64,000 nt of DNA. Origin: Candidatus Zixiibacteriota bacterium (lineage in GTDB: Bacteria; Zixibacteria; MSB-5A5; GN15; FEB-12). The notes beneath the pieces are model-generated. The model had not been told where the DNA came from. It ran no database searches and saw nothing but the letters and a program-made list of their open reading frames with translations. Location: the NCBI GenBank assembly GCA_029860345.1, contig JAOUBJ010000002.1:310001-374000 (forward strand), read 5' to 3'. How positions within the stretch are numbered: the stretch's first letter is position 1; each line of letters opens with the position of its first letter. Shown here piece after piece: positions 55,387-64,000 of this stretch. The translations under genes and the position numbers were made by a program.

Positions 55387-56715
55387 CTACTCCAACACAA
55401 TCGTCTGCCGGTCGACGAGTAGTAGAGGATCATCGGGCTCATTCCGTGCATACACTTCGGCCACATAGCTACCGGGCGCTATGTTGTACACGCGACCCGT
55501 AACATCGAAAGAACAGTCGCAAGCCATATATTCTTCCGAGATGTTGATCTCGTAAAACCGAAGAGTGTCCCCGACAGCGTTGAAACCGACTTCAATAACG
55601 GCGCCGCAATTGAAAGTAGCGTCGAAGTGTTGCAGGTTCAGGGTGTCACCATTGTACTCATAGTTCACAACAGAACGACCGCCGCCTCGACTTAAACAGC
55701 CGCTGTCGCCGAACTCAGACATGCTCGAATCTCCGGCCGGAAGGTGGATATTTCGCCGGTCCAACAGCAGACTTTCCTCCCAGGGATAGTCCTGGTTGTA
55801 GACCTCGGCCACATACGATCCGGGGGGCAGGCCCTCCACGATTGAAGTCAGTTCATAATAGCACATGCACGGCACCGGGAAATCCCCGTTCACATTCCGC
55901 TCGTGAAAGCGCAGGGTGTCGCCGACAATCTCCAAATCCAGCATCAAATCAGCGGCGCAGTTGAACCAGGCGTTTTCGTGAACCATGGTCAAGACGCCGG
56001 ATTGCCAAAGATAGTAGATGATCGGATCACCCCATTCCGGTGGACCTTTGGGATCAGGAACGCATTCGCCAACGTCGAAGTAGATAGCTCCCGTAGCAAC
56101 CACCGCCGTGTCGACACCCTCCAGATTCCCGTCTATGTCGATCAGCGTCACTATATACTCGCCCGGCGAGAGATTGTGAATGGTCGATTCCAGATCGAAA
56201 GGACAGTAACAATCACAGAGTTCGTTGGTGTCGGCCTCGTATCCGATGAAATGATTGCCGTACCGATAGTACTGAACATTATAGCCGAGACAGCATTGGT
56301 AGTACGCCTCCGGATGATAAACATGAATCTCGTTGCCGACCGCCACTATATACATACCACGATCCCGGGCCGGACCGCTGTCGGCCCCCATGCTGTCCAG
56401 GCATTGACCGCTGTTTTCAGAGTGGTCGTTGAACTCCACAAAACTACACTGCGGAGTACAGATGCCCTCAAACACGAACCAGCATTCGACCCAGCAGATC
56501 AGCGTGGAGATGTCAATGTCCCCTCCGGCGCCGTCACAGTCGGCCGTGCCAGGGAAGGGCAACGGTGGTCCACCGGAAAACATGAAGTCGACCAGGTAGA
56601 CAATGTCGGAAATGTCAATAACCCCGCTGAGGTCAAAATCACCGCACGCCGGTTCGGCCTGGACAGAACCAGCCAACATTAGCGGCAGCACAAATAGGAA
56701 CATCCACTTTTTCAT
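55387..56715 (-). CDS. Secreted protein with N-terminal dockerin-like module and three Cys-rich repeats
   Basis: A 442-residue exported protein. Its order is reversed relative to its relatives: the signal peptide (1-20) is followed at once by a dockerin-like pair (GVIDISDIVYLVDFMFSGG, then a divergent DIDISTLICWVECWF). Three repeats of about 90-110 residues then follow, with the pattern aromatic-NC ... GDTLRFxE ... CxC ... PGSYVAEVY, clearest in the last two. Each repeat has three cysteines. I know no family for this repeat. A strong promoter lies upstream, and AAAGG is eight bases before ATG. Confidence 0.8.
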   Translation of the reverse strand: MKKWMFLFVLPLMLAGSVQAEPACGDFDLSGVIDISDIVYLVDFMFSGGPPLPFPGTADCDGAGGDIDISTLICWVECWFVFEGICTPQCSFVEFNDHSENSGQCLDSMGADSGPARDRGMYIVAVGNEIHVYHPEAYYQCCLGYNVQYYRYGNHFIGYEADTNELCDCYCPFDLESTIHNLSPGEYIVTLIDIDGNLEGVDTAVVATGAIYFDVGECVPDPKGPPEWGDPIIYYLWQSGVLTMVHENAWFNCAADLMLDLEIVGDTLRFHERNVNGDFPVPCMCYYELTSIVEGLPPGSYVAEVYNQDYPWEESLLLDRRNIHLPAGDSSMSEFGDSGCLSRGGGRSVVNYEYNGDTLNLQHFDATFNCGAVIEVGFNAVGDTLRFYEINISEEYMACDCSFDVTGRVYNIAPGSYVAEVYARNEPDDPLLLVDRQTIVLE

Positions 56716-56968: not shown

Positions 56969-58933
56969 TTGAGCACAAACTACGAAGAGACAAAACAGCA
57001 TCTTGGTTACGTATCTCGCTCTGAAGCTACGGCCGAAACATACGCCGACCTTGGCTTCATGTGCGGGCTGGAAATCCACCAGCAGTTGTTGACGGATCGA
57101 AAGCTGTTCTGTCGTTGTCCCGCCGGTCTGTACAACGATAAGGCGGATTACGACGCCGAAGTAGTCAGGCACATGCGTCCGACCCTTTCGGAACTGGGTG
57201 AGTATGACGGAACAGCGCTGATGGAGTTCCGGACGAAGAAGAACATCGTCTACCATTTGAAGAACGCCACCGCCTGCACCTATGAAGTCGACGACACGCC
57301 GCCCTTTCGAATCGATCAGCAGGCTCTTGATATTGCCATACGCATCGCCCTAATGCTCAAGACCAACATCGTCGGTGAATTGCACATCACTCGCAAGCAG
57401 TATCTCGACGGAAGTATCCCCACCGGCTTTCAGCGCACCGGAATTATCGGGATCGAAGGAGAGATCCCCCTGACTAACAAGAAGGTGCGAATCATCCAAT
57501 TGAGCCTGGAGGAGGATTCCTGCCGCGAAGTATCCGATGTCGGACATTGGCGGGTCTATACCACCGACAGGTTGGGAATGCCGTTGATTGAGACGGTTAC
57601 CTATCCCGACATGCTCACACCCGACGAAGCCGCCGAAGCCGGACATTATCTGAGATTCCTCACGCGCAGCTCCGGGCTTGTGCGTTCGGGAATGGGCGCT
57701 GCGCGGCAGGATGTCAATGTCAGTATCACCGGTGGTACGCGCGTTGAGATCAAGGGCGTGGCGCACATCGCCTGGATACCTGAACTGACACACAACGAGG
57801 CCTTTCGTCAGAAAGCGCTGCTTGAAATCGCAGCCGGACTTACCGGTCGTGTCGACGCGAACGAATGGAAACTGGCGGTCACAGACGTCCCGCCGCGATT
57901 GTTGAGCGGCTTTTATGCATCCAAACCGGACCTGCCGCATGATCATCGGTTTGTCGCAGTCAATCTCGCGGGCTGGGCAGGCGCCCTGTCGTTCTTCACG
58001 CAACCGGGAAAAGTATTTGCCGATGAACTGAGCGACCGGCTGAAGGTGATTGCCTGTCTGGAAAAACCGAATCTCCTGGTCTCGGAGCATGTGCGCGACG
58101 AGTTAGTGATGTCGGGTACCGACCTGGACGCGGTGCGGCGGCTGTTGAAGGCCGAGGATGGTGATGCTCAACTGCTCGTGTGGGGAGCGCCCGAAGACAT
58201 TGAAACGGCCGTCGAAACAATCGACGAACGATGCCGCCTGGCCTTTGTCGGAGTACCGAACGAAACCAGAAAGGCCTTGCCTGACGGTACAACTCTCTTC
58301 GAGCGTGTCTTGCCGGGCGCTGATCGGATGTACCCCGATACGGACAGCGCACCGATACCGATCTCCGACGATGCCATTGAAAGACTCGGCATGGATCTCC
58401 CTTGCGAAATCTGTGACCGTATGAGGCAACTGAACGAATGGAATATCCCGGCGGATACCCATCATTACCTGCTCACTCGTAACCTGGTGCCGGTTATCGA
58501 GAGGATCGTCGGCGAGTGTGATCTGTCGGCTCGGTTTGTCGGCACCCTACTGGGACATGCACTCAAGGTGCTTGAAGGTCGTAAGCCGTGGACAGTGGGA
58601 TTCAGTAACAGCAAGGTCTACGGACTTGCCCGATTCGTAAAAGATCGCGGCTTGGACAAAGACATTCTTCCTGCTCTGTTACCGGTCGTCTATGAGCATC
58701 CCAACATGGTGTTTGAGTCGGTGCTCACAACAATCGGCTACCGACCCGTCCAAGTGCAGGAGGTGCTCGAGCATGTACCTGCTCTGAAAGAGAAGTTCAA
58801 GGATGTTTGCACCAGTTCTGCGCCCAACGCCTGCGCCGACTGGATCATGGGAAACCTTCGCAAACTTGCCCTCGGCAATATGCCTTTGGCCGAGCTTCGC
58901 CGGATTGTTGACAAGGAGGTGAGCGGTGGCTGA
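56969..58933 (+). CDS. gatE: Glutamyl-tRNA(Gln) amidotransferase subunit E, archaeal type
   Basis: A 654-residue protein that should bind misacylated Glu-tRNA(Gln), phosphorylate its glutamyl group and accept ammonia from GatD to form Gln-tRNA(Gln). The GatB-like catalytic cradle begins GLEIHQQLLTDRKLFCRCP near residue 33 and continues with QLSLEEDSCRE and a YPDMLTPDEA segment. After about residue 400 comes the GAD-type insert shared with AspRS (EDIETAVETIDERCRLAFVGVPNETR, GADRMYPDTDSAPIPI), which separates GatE from bacterial GatB. A tail domain of YqeY type ends the protein. The start is TTG; the ribosome site is weak. The last 8 bases overlap gatD. Confidence 0.93.
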   Translation: MSTNYEETKQHLGYVSRSEATAETYADLGFMCGLEIHQQLLTDRKLFCRCPAGLYNDKADYDAEVVRHMRPTLSELGEYDGTALMEFRTKKNIVYHLKNATACTYEVDDTPPFRIDQQALDIAIRIALMLKTNIVGELHITRKQYLDGSIPTGFQRTGIIGIEGEIPLTNKKVRIIQLSLEEDSCREVSDVGHWRVYTTDRLGMPLIETVTYPDMLTPDEAAEAGHYLRFLTRSSGLVRSGMGAARQDVNVSITGGTRVEIKGVAHIAWIPELTHNEAFRQKALLEIAAGLTGRVDANEWKLAVTDVPPRLLSGFYASKPDLPHDHRFVAVNLAGWAGALSFFTQPGKVFADELSDRLKVIACLEKPNLLVSEHVRDELVMSGTDLDAVRRLLKAEDGDAQLLVWGAPEDIETAVETIDERCRLAFVGVPNETRKALPDGTTLFERVLPGADRMYPDTDSAPIPISDDAIERLGMDLPCEICDRMRQLNEWNIPADTHHYLLTRNLVPVIERIVGECDLSARFVGTLLGHALKVLEGRKPWTVGFSNSKVYGLARFVKDRGLDKDILPALLPVVYEHPNMVFESVLTTIGYRPVQVQEVLEHVPALKEKFKDVCTSSAPNACADWIMGNLRKLALGNMPLAELRRIVDKEVSGG

Positions 58934-60308
58934 TCTGTTCAAAGGATACAAAGGGGCAGCATTGTCGTCACTCAAAGAGTTCGGCGTGAGGGTATGGAGC
59001 GAAGCCCATATCAAGACCAGTCGCGGCGATTTCAGTGGGATCATTCTGCCGCGCTCGGAAAACGATGATGACCGGCACATCGTGCTCAAACTGGCCACAG
59101 GATACAACGTCGGAATCAATGTCGACACCATCACCGACATGAGCGAACATGGCTACAAAGAGGCCCATTACAAGATACCTGAAAAAGAGTTCCCAACAGC
59201 ACCGGGTAAACCGCACGTCAAACTGTTCGGCACCGGTGGTACCATTGCCTCGCGGCTTGACTATCGTACCGGCGCTGTGATACCTGCCTTCTCACCGGGC
59301 GAACTCTACGGCGCCGTCCCCGAACTGGCCGATATCTGCAACCTGACCACCGAGAAACTATTCGCCGTGTTCTCAGAGAATATGGGTCCGCAGCAGTATA
59401 TAGAACTTGCCAACGCTATCGGCAAGGAGATTGCGAATGGCATCGACGGCATCGTCATTGGGCACGGCACCGACACTATGCACCACACGGCCGGGGCCCT
59501 GGCCTTCATGATTCAAAACTCGCCGGTTCCGATCGTGGTGGTGGGATCGCAAAGGTCTTCGGACCGGCCGTCATCGGATGCCGCCCTGAATCTTATCCAT
59601 GCCACCACGGCCGCCGCTACGTCTGATATCGCCGAAGTGATGGTCTGCATGTTCGGCCCCACGTCCGATGAGTACGGCCTCTTGCATCGCGGCACGCGAG
59701 TGCGTAAAATGCATTCGTCCTATCGTTCGACTTTCCGGACTATTGGAGCCACTCCGTTGGCTATGATCGACCGCGATAAGATCACACCGCTGACCGACAA
59801 CTACAACCGCCGTCGCACCGACCGCAAGGTCAAGATCACGGCGCTGTTTGAAGAGAAAGTCGCGATGGTCTACTACTATCCGAACATGATGCCGGACATT
59901 ATCGACTCGCTGGTGGAAAACGGCTACAAGGGAATCGTCATCGCGGGGACCGGGCTTGGGCATGTCAACAAACCGGTTTACCCGGCTATCGAACGGGCGA
60001 CCAAAGCCGGTGTCGCCATTTACATGACGGTGCAGACTTTGTGGGGATATGTGCACATGTTCGTCTATGACACCGGGCGTGATCTGATGGCCAAGGGGAT
60101 CATCCCGACCGAAAACATGTTGCCGGAAGTGGCCTACGTCAAACTTGGCTGGGCACTGGGACAAACCAGTGATCTGGACGAAGTCCGAAAGATCATGCTG
60201 GCGCCGATTGCTGCGGAAATTACTGAGCGGGAACCCTACAACGGCTACCTGATCTTTCAGGGTGGCGTCCCCGAGGTCGAGGCCTTCCTGAAAAACGTGC
60301 ACAAGTAG
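58926..60308 (+). CDS. gatD: Glutamyl-tRNA(Gln) amidotransferase subunit D, archaeal type
   Basis: A 460-residue asparaginase-like subunit that releases ammonia from glutamine or asparagine for GatE. The first 90 residues are the GatD-specific N-terminal domain (KTSRGDFSGIILPRSENDDD), absent from plain asparaginases. The catalytic threonines and partners are in place: TGGTIASR at 103-110, HGTDTMHH at 180-187 (Thr182, Asp183) and a later Lys in RVRKMHSS. The start GTG has AAGGAGG upstream, within the end of gatE, so expression is coupled. Both the N-terminal domain and the pairing with gatE exclude a simple asparaginase. Confidence 0.93.
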   Translation: MADLFKGYKGAALSSLKEFGVRVWSEAHIKTSRGDFSGIILPRSENDDDRHIVLKLATGYNVGINVDTITDMSEHGYKEAHYKIPEKEFPTAPGKPHVKLFGTGGTIASRLDYRTGAVIPAFSPGELYGAVPELADICNLTTEKLFAVFSENMGPQQYIELANAIGKEIANGIDGIVIGHGTDTMHHTAGALAFMIQNSPVPIVVVGSQRSSDRPSSDAALNLIHATTAAATSDIAEVMVCMFGPTSDEYGLLHRGTRVRKMHSSYRSTFRTIGATPLAMIDRDKITPLTDNYNRRRTDRKVKITALFEEKVAMVYYYPNMMPDIIDSLVENGYKGIVIAGTGLGHVNKPVYPAIERATKAGVAIYMTVQTLWGYVHMFVYDTGRDLMAKGIIPTENMLPEVAYVKLGWALGQTSDLDEVRKIMLAPIAAEITEREPYNGYLIFQGGVPEVEAFLKNVHK

Positions 60309-61164: not shown

Positions 61165-61716
61165 ATGGGTGAAACCAAAGCGGGCAAATCCATTCTCAAG
61201 TGGGTGGGCATCTTTGTCATCATGACAGCCGGTGTCTTTACCGGTATGACTTTGTCGATCAAGTACACCGGAGCTGGAAGCAGGGGCGCCGAGGTGCTGC
61301 CGGCCAGTCTGCGAAACTCCACAAACCTGGAGATCGGTCAGACAATGCCGTCGATCACGGCTTATCACCAGGATGGAGAACCGATGGACTTGCAGTCGGT
61401 GCTAGTGGGACGAAAAACCGTGCTCGGCTTCGTGTCCCAGACTTGCGGACCCTGTAAGCAGTTTATCAAGTTCCTCGAAGGGAGTGAACTGCTGGCCTCA
61501 GAGGGCTACCAGATTCTGCTCTTATCCGTGAAGCCGGAGGATGACCTGGCCAACTATGTGCTGCCGGTCTTTCGTGTCTCAGAAGAATTGCAGAAAGAGT
61601 TAGCTATCGACATGGTGCCAACCATGATCGGCATCGGCGAGGACGCGACCATCCAGTTTGTTAGCTGCGGGTTTTCGGGGATTATCACGGATGAATACGT
61701 CGAAGAATACCTGTAA
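61165..61716 (+). CDS. Membrane-anchored thioredoxin-like (TlpA/redoxin) protein
   Basis: A 183-residue protein with one N-terminal helix (WVGIFVIMTAGVFTGMTLSI, about 13-32) and a periplasmic thioredoxin-fold domain. The active site is SQTCGPCKQF (Cys94, Cys97), and the cis-proline loop is MVPTM near residue 152. EIGQTMPSITAYHQDGEPMDL is the redoxin/TlpA-type lead-in. It should exchange disulfides outside the cytoplasmic membrane. GGAGG lies eight bases before ATG 61165. Forty bases after its stop begins the first of five small cysteine-rich peptide genes, the obvious candidate substrates. Whether it oxidises, isomerises or reduces them cannot be read from sequence. Confidence 0.88.
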   Translation: MGETKAGKSILKWVGIFVIMTAGVFTGMTLSIKYTGAGSRGAEVLPASLRNSTNLEIGQTMPSITAYHQDGEPMDLQSVLVGRKTVLGFVSQTCGPCKQFIKFLEGSELLASEGYQILLLSVKPEDDLANYVLPVFRVSEELQKELAIDMVPTMIGIGEDATIQFVSCGFSGIITDEYVEEYL

Positions 61717-61756
61717 CCCAGCGCATGAAAATGCACAGGAGAGAGGAGGTGAAAAT

Positions 61757-62062
61757 ATGAGACTAACATTGAAGGTACTCGGTATCTTTGTCGGCATGGC
61801 CGTATGCGGCTTCTTGCTGCCCCACATGACCGATGGTAACGCCTTGGCCGGGGAAGATTGCGGCATAGAGTGCGCCGGAGGAGGAGGCTCGTGTGATGAC
61901 TTGCCGCTTCCGCCCATGACCTTCCTGGCCTGCTGTGGAGGACATTGTTCGGGATATCAAGGCGATGATCCGGTGTTCGAGTGTTGGGGTCGCTGTAGCA
62001 TCAACGATAAGCTGTGCGACTGCAACCAAATCGGTTGTCATAGTCTGCCCATCTGTCCGTAG
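61757..62062 (+). CDS. Secreted 12-cysteine peptide, copy 1
   Basis: A 101-residue precursor. The leader MRLTLKVLGIFVGMAVCGFLL plus a short PHMTDGNALA segment looks like a Sec signal with cleavage after ALA. The mature part of about 70 residues has 12 cysteines with spacing C-x3-C-x6-C-x12-CC-x3-C-x11-C-x3-C-x6-C-x-C-x4-C-x5-C, so up to six disulfides. GYQGDDPVFE between the sixth and seventh Cys is conserved in the family. AGGAGG stands before ATG. It lies 40 bases after the thioredoxin-like gene and is probably co-transcribed. No known family could be assigned; NVEALA-type peptides of Bacteroidetes are the nearest analogue in layout. The segment after the leader is mildly acidic. Confidence 0.8.
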   Translation: MRLTLKVLGIFVGMAVCGFLLPHMTDGNALAGEDCGIECAGGGGSCDDLPLPPMTFLACCGGHCSGYQGDDPVFECWGRCSINDKLCDCNQIGCHSLPICP

Positions 62063-62107
62063 ATTAGGTCGAGTAAGAAAACCGTTTTAACAAACTTGCG
62101 CTGGGCA

Positions 62108-62133
62108 GCCGGCCGCTCGTGCGAGCGGTCGGC
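62108..62133 (+). promoter_or_regulatory. Intergenic hairpin between peptide genes 1 and 2
   Basis: GCCGGCCGCTC, loop GTGC, GAGCGGTCGGC: an 11-bp stem with one G-U pair. No T run follows, so it is more likely an RNA-stability or processing element than a simple terminator. The same stem recurs at 63116 and 63613 with a different loop. Confidence 0.7.
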
Positions 62134-62348
62134 TATTAGACTCGCAGGCAGACAGAGGCCATGTTCTCGGGCGGTCAGAGACCCGTTTTTGAGTTTTGCG
62201 TCAGATTCATACATCCTTGAGTTGACATCATTAGAGAAGGTGCTCGGCGGCCTATCGGGGTCACTTGTGGCGAGAAGTGGCGGTAATTTCATCGGCGACC
62301 ACTGTAACCCCGGCGCATTGATACTAACCGGAGAAAGGAAGTGAGGTC

Positions 62349-62654
62349 ATGAAACTATCCTTGAAGGTTCTGGGCCTCTTTTTGGGGATGGCCGTATGTG
62401 GCTTCTTGTTGCCGCACCTGCCCGGTGGGGACATCTATGCCGGTTGTGGCTGTGAAGAAGTAGAGTGCATTAGGGGAGGAGGAGGCACATGTGAACCGAT
62501 GCAGGAGCCTCTTGGCTACCTGTCTTGCTGCGCTGGAGGGTGCCAGGGATATGAAGGTGATTACATGGTGTTTGAATGTTGGGGACGTTGCAGTATCGGC
62601 AACAATGTTTGCGACTGCACGCAGATCGGGTGCCACAGCCTGCCCATCTGTTAG
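62349..62654 (+). CDS. Secreted 12-cysteine peptide, copy 2
   Basis: A 101-residue precursor with the family leader (MKLSLKVLGLFLGMAVCGFLL) and probable cleavage after IYA. The mature part has the 12 family cysteines plus an additional one near its start (CGCEEVEC). It is the only copy where GDDP is replaced by GDYM; FECWGRCSI and CDCTQIGCHSLPIC match copy 1 closely. GGAAG precedes ATG. The 286 bases before it are longer than other gaps in the array and contain a hairpin, and a CTGTAA sits 42 bases before the start as in the other copies. Confidence 0.8.
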   Translation: MKLSLKVLGLFLGMAVCGFLLPHLPGGDIYAGCGCEEVECIRGGGGTCEPMQEPLGYLSCCAGGCQGYEGDYMVFECWGRCSIGNNVCDCTQIGCHSLPIC

Positions 62655-62777
62655 TGGCTGGACTGTAATGACGGAAACAGCCGTACATCTGCTTGGTGCA
62701 GGACGGCATTTGACAAGGAAGTTGAACAATACCTGTAATGCGGCGCATGAATCCTAACAGGTGGAAGGAGGTGAAAC

Positions 62778-63071
62778 ATGAGACTCTCAACGAAAGTTCT
62801 CGGCATCTTTCTTGGCATGGCGGTTCTGGGTTTCTTGGTACCGCACATGCCGGGAGAATACTTAGCGGCTGCAGAGGATTGCGGTATCGGGTGCAGTTCT
62901 CCCGGTATATGCAACGACCTACTGGAGCCCTACTCCATTTTCGCATGCTGCGCTGGGTGGTGCGGTGGTTATCCGGGCGACGATCCGGTTTGGTATTGTA
63001 CCGGCTCGTGCTCCACCACCGGCCAACTTTGTGACTGTACGCAAACCGGATGTCACACCCGTTGTCCATAG
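62778..63071 (+). CDS. Secreted 12-cysteine peptide, copy 3
   Basis: A 97-residue precursor with leader MRLSTKVLGIFLGMAVLGFLV and probable cleavage after LAAA. All 12 cysteines are kept; the C2-C3 and C3-C4 loops are shorter by one residue and the last loop is x3 instead of x5. AAGGAGG precedes ATG. Just upstream, 62712-62738 translates as DKEVEQYL-stop, close to the DEYVEEYL-stop end of the thioredoxin-like protein, at the same distance from the start. This suggests that the copied unit included the end of that gene. Confidence 0.8.
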   Translation: MRLSTKVLGIFLGMAVLGFLVPHMPGEYLAAAEDCGIGCSSPGICNDLLEPYSIFACCAGWCGGYPGDDPVWYCTGSCSTTGQLCDCTQTGCHTRCP

Positions 63072-63105
63072 CATACGTTTGTTAGCCTTTATGCTGTTGT
63101 AAACA

Positions 63106-63270
63106 TGCGCCGGGAGGCCGGCCGCTCACCGGAGCGGTCGGCCCGTTGATCACCGGCGACAGAAGGACCCGATCTCCCGCTTGGAACGGAACGGTTATTG
63201 GAAATAGCATGTTAACGAGACCTGTACTACGGCGCAAGAATACCCACAGGAGAAAGGAGGTGAGAACATG
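63106..63270 (+). repeat. 165-bp intergenic direct repeat, copy 1
   Basis: It runs from just after peptide gene 3 through the ATG of peptide gene 4. It differs from 63603-63767 by only about five bases. It includes a 12-bp GC hairpin (63116-63143) and the ribosome site GAAAGGAGGTGA. Confidence 0.9.
63116..63143 (+). promoter_or_regulatory. Intergenic hairpin between peptide genes 3 and 4
   Basis: GGCCGGCCGCTC, loop ACCG, GAGCGGTCGGCC: a 12-bp stem with one G-U pair and no following T run. Confidence 0.7.
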
Positions 63271-63573
63271 AGAACAGTGGTGAAGGTGTTTGGGTTCTTT
63301 CTTGGCATGGTGGTATGCGGCTTCTTACTGCCGTATATGCCGGGAGGGAGCGTGATGGCCACTGACGATTGCGGTCTCGGATGCAGTGGGGGTGGCGGGA
63401 CTTGTGACTCGTTGCCCCCGCCCGGCCATAGATTTGTCTACACATGCTGCGGTGGATACTGCAGCAGTTATCCGGGGGATGATCCCGTGTGGATTTGTGC
63501 CGGCCAGTGCTCCGTGACGGGAGACTACTGTAACTGTACTCAGGTAGCATGCCATAATAACTGCGGTGGCTAG
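63268..63573 (+). CDS. Secreted 12-cysteine peptide, copy 4
   Basis: A 101-residue precursor. The leader MRTVVKVFGFFLGMVVCGFLL has the family pattern, with probable cleavage after VMA. The 12 cysteines and the YPGDDPVW segment are conserved. Variation is concentrated in the loop between C3 and C4 (DSLPPPGHRFVYT) and after C8. GAAAGGAGG lies ahead of ATG. The region upstream is nearly identical to that of copy 5, but the two mature peptides differ at many positions, so the flanks are more alike than the products. Confidence 0.8.
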   Translation: MRTVVKVFGFFLGMVVCGFLLPYMPGGSVMATDDCGLGCSGGGGTCDSLPPPGHRFVYTCCGGYCSSYPGDDPVWICAGQCSVTGDYCNCTQVACHNNCGG

Positions 63574-63602
63574 TTCGCTTTCGTAGAGTACACTCCTAAA
63601 CT

Positions 63603-63767
63603 TGCGCCGGGAGGCCGGCCGCTCACCGGAGCGGTCGGCCCGTTGATCCCCGGCGACAGAAGGACCCGATCTCCCGCTTGGAACAGAACGGTTATTGGAA
63701 ATAGCATGTTAACGAGACCTGTACTACGGCGCGAGAATACTCACAGGAGAAAGGAGGTGAGAATATG
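63603..63767 (+). repeat. 165-bp intergenic direct repeat, copy 2
   Basis: The partner of 63106-63270, offset by 497 bases, ending at the ATG of peptide gene 5. Confidence 0.9.
63613..63640 (+). promoter_or_regulatory. Intergenic hairpin between peptide genes 4 and 5
   Basis: Same stem and ACCG loop as 63116-63143. Confidence 0.7.
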
Positions 63768-64000
63768 AGATTGTCCATGAAGGTGCTTGGCATCTTTCTC
63801 GGCATGGCCGTGCTCGGCTTCGTAATGCCGCACATGTCGGGAGAGTACCTGTCGGCTGCCGAGGATTGCGGTCTTTGGTGTGGTCCCGGTGACGGTACTT
63901 GCGATCCGCTGCCCCCATTCCCGGGTCCCAGAGTTGTAGCTGCATGTTGCGGTGGACACTGCAACCAATATGAAGGCGAGGACCCACACTTTTTGTGTTA
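63765..64000 (+). CDS. Secreted 12-cysteine peptide, copy 5 (cut by the window end)
   Basis: The first 78 codons of a fifth family member. The leader MRLSMKVLGIFLGMAVLGFVM and EYLSAAEDCG are close to copy 3. The seven cysteines present follow family spacing (C-x3-C-x6-C, a CC pair, x3, then x11 with YEGEDPHF in place of YPGDDPVW). The reading frame is open at the edge, so the array continues beyond the window; the number of further copies is unknown. Confidence 0.8.
   Translation, partial: MRLSMKVLGIFLGMAVLGFVMPHMSGEYLSAAEDCGLWCGPGDGTCDPLPPFPGPRVVAACCGGHCNQYEGEDPHFLC

Follow-up and report, generated by a model that had tools for sequence, protein, structure and literature searches.

Oxidoreductases dedicated to one bacterial peptide are already known. 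In the sublancin cluster of Bacillus subtilis, the SunA peptide gene is found with the oxidoreductases BdbA/BdbB, and the product is one glycosylated bacteriocin that has an ABC exporter of its own as well as an immunity protein. MauA/MauD of methylamine dehydrogenase combines a small exported protein of 12 cysteines with a membrane-anchored thioredoxin-like assembly helper. Proteins of the ResA/TlpA type are thiol-disulfide oxidoreductases that face the periplasm or the surface and work mostly as reductants; the characterised ones take part in cytochrome c or oxidase biogenesis. Here we analysed a stretch of 64,000 nucleotides from a Candidatus Zixiibacteriota bacterium (the window; G000:C2:310001-374000 of the source genome), in which the gene of a membrane-anchored ResA/TlpA-like thioredoxin (Trx) is followed by an array of genes for small cysteine-rich exported peptides. 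We estimate at about 0.72 the probability that these constitute a two-part module, with a dedicated periplasm-facing Trx and an array of diversifying exported disulfide miniproteins. The pairing is more widespread than first described, the Trx belonging to a family found in 34 genomes, all of one phylum.

The locus resembles each of these systems in part. As in the sublancin cluster, a thiol-disulfide oxidoreductase gene adjoins the gene of a small exported peptide, here putatively disulfide-bonded, but the present peptides have a Sec-type leader and form diversified arrays, and the loci showed no gene for an exporter, a glycosyltransferase or an immunity protein. A 12-cysteine exported small protein with a membrane-anchored Trx-like protein recalls MauA/MauD; however, there was no MauA match, no large subunit was seen, and the copies are many and diverged. 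With ResA of Bacillus and its type (2yp6, 4hqz) the Trx shares an N-terminal anchor, CxxC, cis-proline and a thioredoxin-fold core, whereas the window Trx scores far below the ResA cut-off and its constant neighbours are genes of cysteine-rich peptides rather than of cytochromes. NVEALA (PF14055) and DUF6520 (PF20130) of Bacteroidota likewise have short precursors whose hydrophobic leader is conserved, but their mature parts are unrelated to those of the Trx-paired peptides. A constant leader with diverging cysteine-rich cargo, and the order C-C-CC-C-C in 12 peptides, resemble conotoxin arrays; these, however, are eukaryotic venom peptides with no sequence homology to the present ones, in which there is no propeptide.

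The window array and its thioredoxin

The genes of the array are as follows; the end of P5 and the whole of P6 were read from the genome sequence downstream of the window.

61165..61716, + strand: membrane-anchored ResA/TlpA-like Trx, 183 residues, N-terminal transmembrane segment with a G-x3-G motif, CGPC, cis-proline (VPT)
61757..62062, + strand: P1, 101-residue precursor, Sec-type leader, AxA-type site, 12-cysteine mature part
62349..62654, + strand: P2, 101-residue 12-cysteine precursor, one extra cysteine ahead of the framework
62778..63071, + strand: P3, 97-residue 12-cysteine precursor
63268..63573, + strand: P4, 101-residue 12-cysteine precursor
63765..64000, + strand: P5, 101-residue 12-cysteine precursor, cut by the window end; whole gene L009:3766-4071, ending at G000:C2:374070
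G000:C2:374268-374567 (L009:4269-4568), outside the window: P6, sixth 12-cysteine precursor

P1 starts 40 nucleotides past the Trx stop codon, and a strong ribosome-binding site stands before it and before each of the other precursors, which measure 97-101 residues. The next large open reading frame (ORF) past P6 encodes an unrelated protein of 785 residues on the opposite strand, indicating that the array ends at P6. Re-reading of the sequence showed the genes, the common leader, the cysteine-rich mature parts and the CGPC Trx neighbour to be as given in the preliminary description. The array it described is real, but its five peptide genes are six, with P5 cut at 64000 and P6 lying beyond the window. 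The 12 cysteine columns of its framework are invariant across P1-P6, although the spacings vary slightly more than in that description, with a first loop of 4 in P2 (the peptide with the extra cysteine) and a third loop of up to 14 in P5. The GDDP motif, said to be kept, is present in P1, P3 and P4, but is changed to GDYM in P2, GEDP in P5 and GDNP in P6.

The window Trx has a basic N-terminus, a single transmembrane stretch (GIFVIMTAGVFTGMTL), a redoxin core, CGPC and the cis-proline motif VPT. Against Pfam Redoxin it scored 26.1 bits, just under the cut-off of 26.6, with AhpC-TSA also just under, and against the ResA model PRK03147 it scored 18.1 bits, the cut-off of 170 bits not being reached. 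Among the 48 members of the Trx family collected below, the transmembrane stretch was called automatically in 46, the remaining two being start-choice artefacts, and CxxC is kept in 47, with L111 as the exception. When the family profile was compared with solved structures, ResA and related thioredoxins were the nearest (2yp6, 4hqz; E 1e-7 to 1e-5). The family shows the traits of the ResA/TlpA type, namely a membrane anchor, CxxC, cis-proline and a redoxin core.

Recurrence of the pairing across the phylum

Homologues were searched with Trx as the query, independent of the peptides. Full-length homologues at E <= 1e-5 were found in 25 of 129 genomes of the phylum. A Trx profile at E <= 1e-15, a threshold that would miss distant relatives, matched 34 of 386 genomes, the genomes outside the phylum being a sample, and all 34 share the source genome's genus, family, order or class. 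Many of the surveyed genomes are fragmented assemblies. A narrower Trx alignment scanned against contigs found only the same-genus contig L077 (JAUWIB010000122.1, 'bacterium isolate CSMAG_2283').

We read the neighbourhoods of the 48 Trx family genes (46 loci, 521 kilobases (kb)) with a fixed peptide rule covering length, cysteine content, ribosome-binding site and a basic plus hydrophobic start. The rule selected 79 ORFs, every one of which lies on the Trx strand within 4 kb of the Trx gene; none lies elsewhere in these loci. Exported cysteine-rich peptide genes adjoin 42 of the 48 Trx genes. Beside most of these there are one to eight precursors of 63-106 residues, each with a leader (e.g. 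MKKTALFSTLFLAVFGLTLGITFMT...A-x-A) and a cysteine-rich mature part. Peptide versions with four cysteines occur at two loci beyond those passing the fixed rule; the 4-cysteine peptides at L061:3541-3765 and L063:7109-7333 are relatives of an 8-cysteine family, with the even count preserved. The peptide gene precedes Trx at L069, L070, L115 and L120, and at L066:6500-7789 a tandem pair of family Trx genes lies ahead of a single peptide gene. Six Trx genes have no peptide: three at contig ends, the truncated Trx of L050, and those of L053 and L111, the last being also the one that has no CxxC. The flanks of the module vary by clade and include urocanase, MotA/MotB, CdaA, MoxR, DUF1028, TPR-CHAT and GatD/GatE. 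Since the flanking genes differ between clades, Trx and the peptides form the conserved unit. The earlier proposal of a production unit, made of peptides and a disulfide-handling enzyme, was supported by this neighbour check in other genomes, with the biochemical role of Trx a putative one.

As a control, the fixed rule was applied to 400 kb of other DNA of the source genome, and it gave two hits, one orphan member and one spurious, compared with five ORFs within the last 2.3 kb of the window. The window array is therefore not a product of chance. A redoxin/AhpC domain search of the source genome found 14 distinct loci; peptides were present at 3/3 Trx-family loci and at none of the 11 others. 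A Trx-family locus newly found by this search, at C11:3258 (L158), carries a peptide. The source genome holds six modules with 19 peptides (six in C2, seven in C3, two each in C1 and C13, and one each in C16 and C11) and one orphan.

Changing cargo behind a conserved leader

Signal cleavage was judged by motif alone, and the mature starts set in this way were also used in the Mantel test and the cluster counts. An AxA-type site is present in all 79 precursors. The number of mature cysteines is even in 68 of 79 peptides (binomial p 2e-11, uncorrected for relatedness), and 26 of 29 clusters are mainly even (p 8e-6), which favours disulfides over metal clusters and lends indirect support to disulfide pairing in the predicted miniproteins. 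The net charge of the mature part has a median of -4 and is negative in 64/79, with the window's six at -5 to -8, which argues against classic cationic membrane-active antimicrobials. At E < 1e-5 the mature parts group into about 29 clusters, whose cysteine frameworks range from C-C-CC-C-C, the exact order in 12 peptides, up to the 12-cysteine order of the window. The window mature profile weakly matched L054 (E 6e-4) and the second array of its own genome, L052 (E 0.009), values softened by cysteine bias, and shares with L052 a C-[DN]-C-x4-C-x3-C end. Judged from sequence, the window's 12-cysteine peptides are probably a distant branch of the wider peptide set.

The peptides of the window array had no match in Pfam or NCBIfam, so the earlier statement that they fit no named family stands. 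For the 79 peptides there was no significant family match in these libraries, with isolated hits at chance level only; one peptide weakly matched DUF6520 (PF20130, E 0.0026) and one an actinodefensin model (E 0.028). A peptide profile searched against PDB also remained at chance level. NVEALA (PF14055) had no match among 372 genomes, the source genome included, or in the window and locus peptides; its likeness is confined to layout, as the preliminary description had said, the mature parts being unrelated. Three DUF6520 matches in other genomes were rejected as leader-only, below the cut-off and unrelated on inspection: a septum-type coiled-coil protein beside enolase, a peptidyl-prolyl isomerase and an unrelated exported protein. 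The profile search proposed for the mature peptides reached no described family, and it yielded no true 12-cysteine relative outside the source genome (60 relatives; 132 phylum genomes; 84,980-species contigs; viral contigs). Weak matches of the 12-cysteine profile at L011 and L012 (E near 0.01) were discarded, and the ORFs of L011 include no such peptide. In a limited literature collection, we found no paper on NVEALA, DUF6520 or a bacterial system of Trx plus cysteine-rich peptides.

In several of the better-alignable arrays, similarity is higher in the leaders and upstream regions than in the mature parts, some pairs excepted. In one genome, the Trx of L055 and L060 are 73% identical and the leaders similar, with mature parts little alike. 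In Mantel tests, Trx similarity correlated more closely with that of leaders (rho 0.36) than with that of mature parts (rho 0.26; both p <= 0.001), values confounded by common descent. The spacers of the window array carry the following features.

63100..63273, + strand: spacer copy 1, 174 nucleotides, from a GC-rich hairpin through the ribosome-binding site to the P4 start, 97% identical to copy 2
63597..63770, + strand: spacer copy 2, 174 nucleotides
62108-62134, 63117-63144 and the other spacers after P4-P6: inverted repeats

Over 174 nucleotides, the spacer between P3 and P4 is 97% identical to that between P4 and P5, compared with about 65% for the surrounding mature parts. The ratio of nonsynonymous to synonymous substitution rates (dN/dS, Nei-Gojobori) in the window array was below 1 wherever computable, and the synonymous sites of the mature parts were saturated; the diversifying change or positive selection in loops that had been proposed was thus not demonstrated. 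Taken with the near-identical spacers, the saturation indicates recent homogenisation of the spacers around cargo that is old or exchanged. The inverted repeat, found after P1 and P3-P6, is GC-rich (gccggccgctc...gagcggtcggc in the best copies) and is a possible terminator or processing site. An Rfam scan across the array gave no match, and a sigma-70 promoter scan showed no excess. Downstream of the array, a Y1 (IS200-like/REP-type) transposase gene lies near short direct repeats at L009:8239-8742.

Some other genes were recorded. Archaeal-type GatE and GatD (Glu-tRNA amidotransferase) adjoin each other at window 56969-58933 and 58926-60308 (+ strand) in this bacterial genome; GatD scored well above the NCBIfam cut-off and GatE above that of TIGR00134. 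In a redoxin-like gene at L162:1501-2000 (G000:C4:95744-96127), an in-frame TGA occupies the active-site position (AASW-TGA-PFC) and a strong hairpin comes after it, making the product a candidate selenoprotein. Exported proteins with dockerin-like 'VDYMFSGGPP' repeats are encoded at window 55387-56715 (- strand) and L009:8885-11029 (- strand); the repeats in the window seem similar to Zixibacteria proteins.

Proposed function and rival explanations

In the proposed module, the ResA/TlpA-type Trx, membrane-anchored and facing the periplasm, would be dedicated to the adjoining miniprotein array. The conserved Sec leader of each precursor would be cleaved at the AxA-type site, and the mature part of 35-75 residues (12 cysteines in the window) would be exported with its cysteines paired as disulfides. 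Trx would reduce or isomerise wrong pairs, forming them being less likely; with general oxidation supplied from elsewhere, it may serve as a proofreader of its neighbours' disulfides, which would let the peptides fold correctly in spite of their dense, changing cysteines. The cargo would be duplicated, diverged and replaced while leader, ribosome-binding region and Trx stay constant. We infer that Trx acts on the neighbouring peptides, by isomerising or reducing, and that the mature peptides are active outside the inner membrane. As to end use, our first choice, a tentative one, is an acidic miniprotein that would bind an extracellular target and antagonise or inhibit neighbouring cells or the enzymes of such cells. 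Somewhat more doubtful is a phylum-specific, multi-locus system of hypervariable disulfide-rich miniproteins with a constant leader and a cognate Trx per array, as a bacterial venom-type counterpart for cell-cell interaction.

Several points weigh against such a dedicated module. The putative link between enzyme and peptides comes from gene context and sequence, and the Trx clade alone is no proof of peptide folding, because the ResA/TlpA members characterised so far function in the biogenesis of cytochrome c or oxidase. The Trx genes of L053 and L111 have room alongside but no peptide gene, and an orphan six-cysteine exported peptide (C-C-CC-C-C; L125:12446-12628, G000:C1:352446-352628) has no Trx adjoining. 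No recurring dedicated exporter, protease or immunity gene appeared at the loci in gene maps or in Pfam searches of ten neighbours. The co-variation of Trx and peptides is ambiguous because common descent confounds it. AlphaFold2 predictions were unusable (pLDDT, the predicted local distance difference test, 42 for the peptides and 44 for Trx), since usable alignment depth was insufficient.

Other functions for the peptides were weighed on the same data. With up to 12 cysteines in about 67 residues, they could be thiol-based metal or cofactor binders whose cysteines Trx keeps reduced for loading, and known members of the ResA/TlpA type are reductants, including metallochaperone and cytochrome c partners. 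We consider this unlikely, because the even cysteine counts (68/79) are those expected of disulfides and not of metal clusters, no CxxCH haem signature recurs, frameworks differ greatly from locus to locus, and glycine, proline and aromatic residues are abundant, unlike in lysine-rich metallothioneins. Antimicrobials of the defensin or bacteriocin kind, cationic and membrane-active, would suit small, disulfide-dense peptides that occur in arrays and change rapidly, and a subset has the C-C-CC-C-C order of knottin-type toxins, besides the weak actinodefensin match; the acidic mature parts, together with the lack of a recurring immunity gene or peptide exporter, make this kind just as unlikely as metal binders.

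The architecture is also similar to that of the mau system, in which case the peptides would belong to periplasmic enzymes as their small, disulfide-rich subunits, with Trx as a MauD-like assembly factor. One of 14 Trx members matched TIGR02661 MauD weakly (E 3e-4), but no mau genes were present among the Trx-locus neighbours examined, and neither a catalytic large subunit nor a constant partner gene was seen near the loci. The peptides have no Pfam match, the window's six have no conserved tryptophan pair, and tandem diversified copies are ill-suited to a single subunit, all of which renders this explanation improbable. Least probable is that Trx and peptides adjoin by accident or merely through local duplication, with a Trx that serves cytochrome biogenesis as its ResA/TlpA-like character might imply: pure coincidence is refuted by the recurrence (42/48 Trx genes paired in changing surroundings, 79/79 peptides on the Trx strand), and the eleven other redoxin loci of the source genome have no peptides.

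The recurrent pairing of Trx with ever-different peptides suggests an unrecognised bacterial route to diverse disulfide-stapled miniproteins. A recurring one-Trx module with arrays of changing acidic exported miniproteins of 4 to 12 cysteines fits no family in the libraries searched, and a single genome can hold as many as six such loci with about 20 peptides. Should the pairing prove functional, nature would have supplied enzymes suited to individual cysteine frameworks, of use in producing disulfide-rich miniproteins, and this little-studied phylum would have a secreted arsenal or a layer of signalling that is as yet unstudied.

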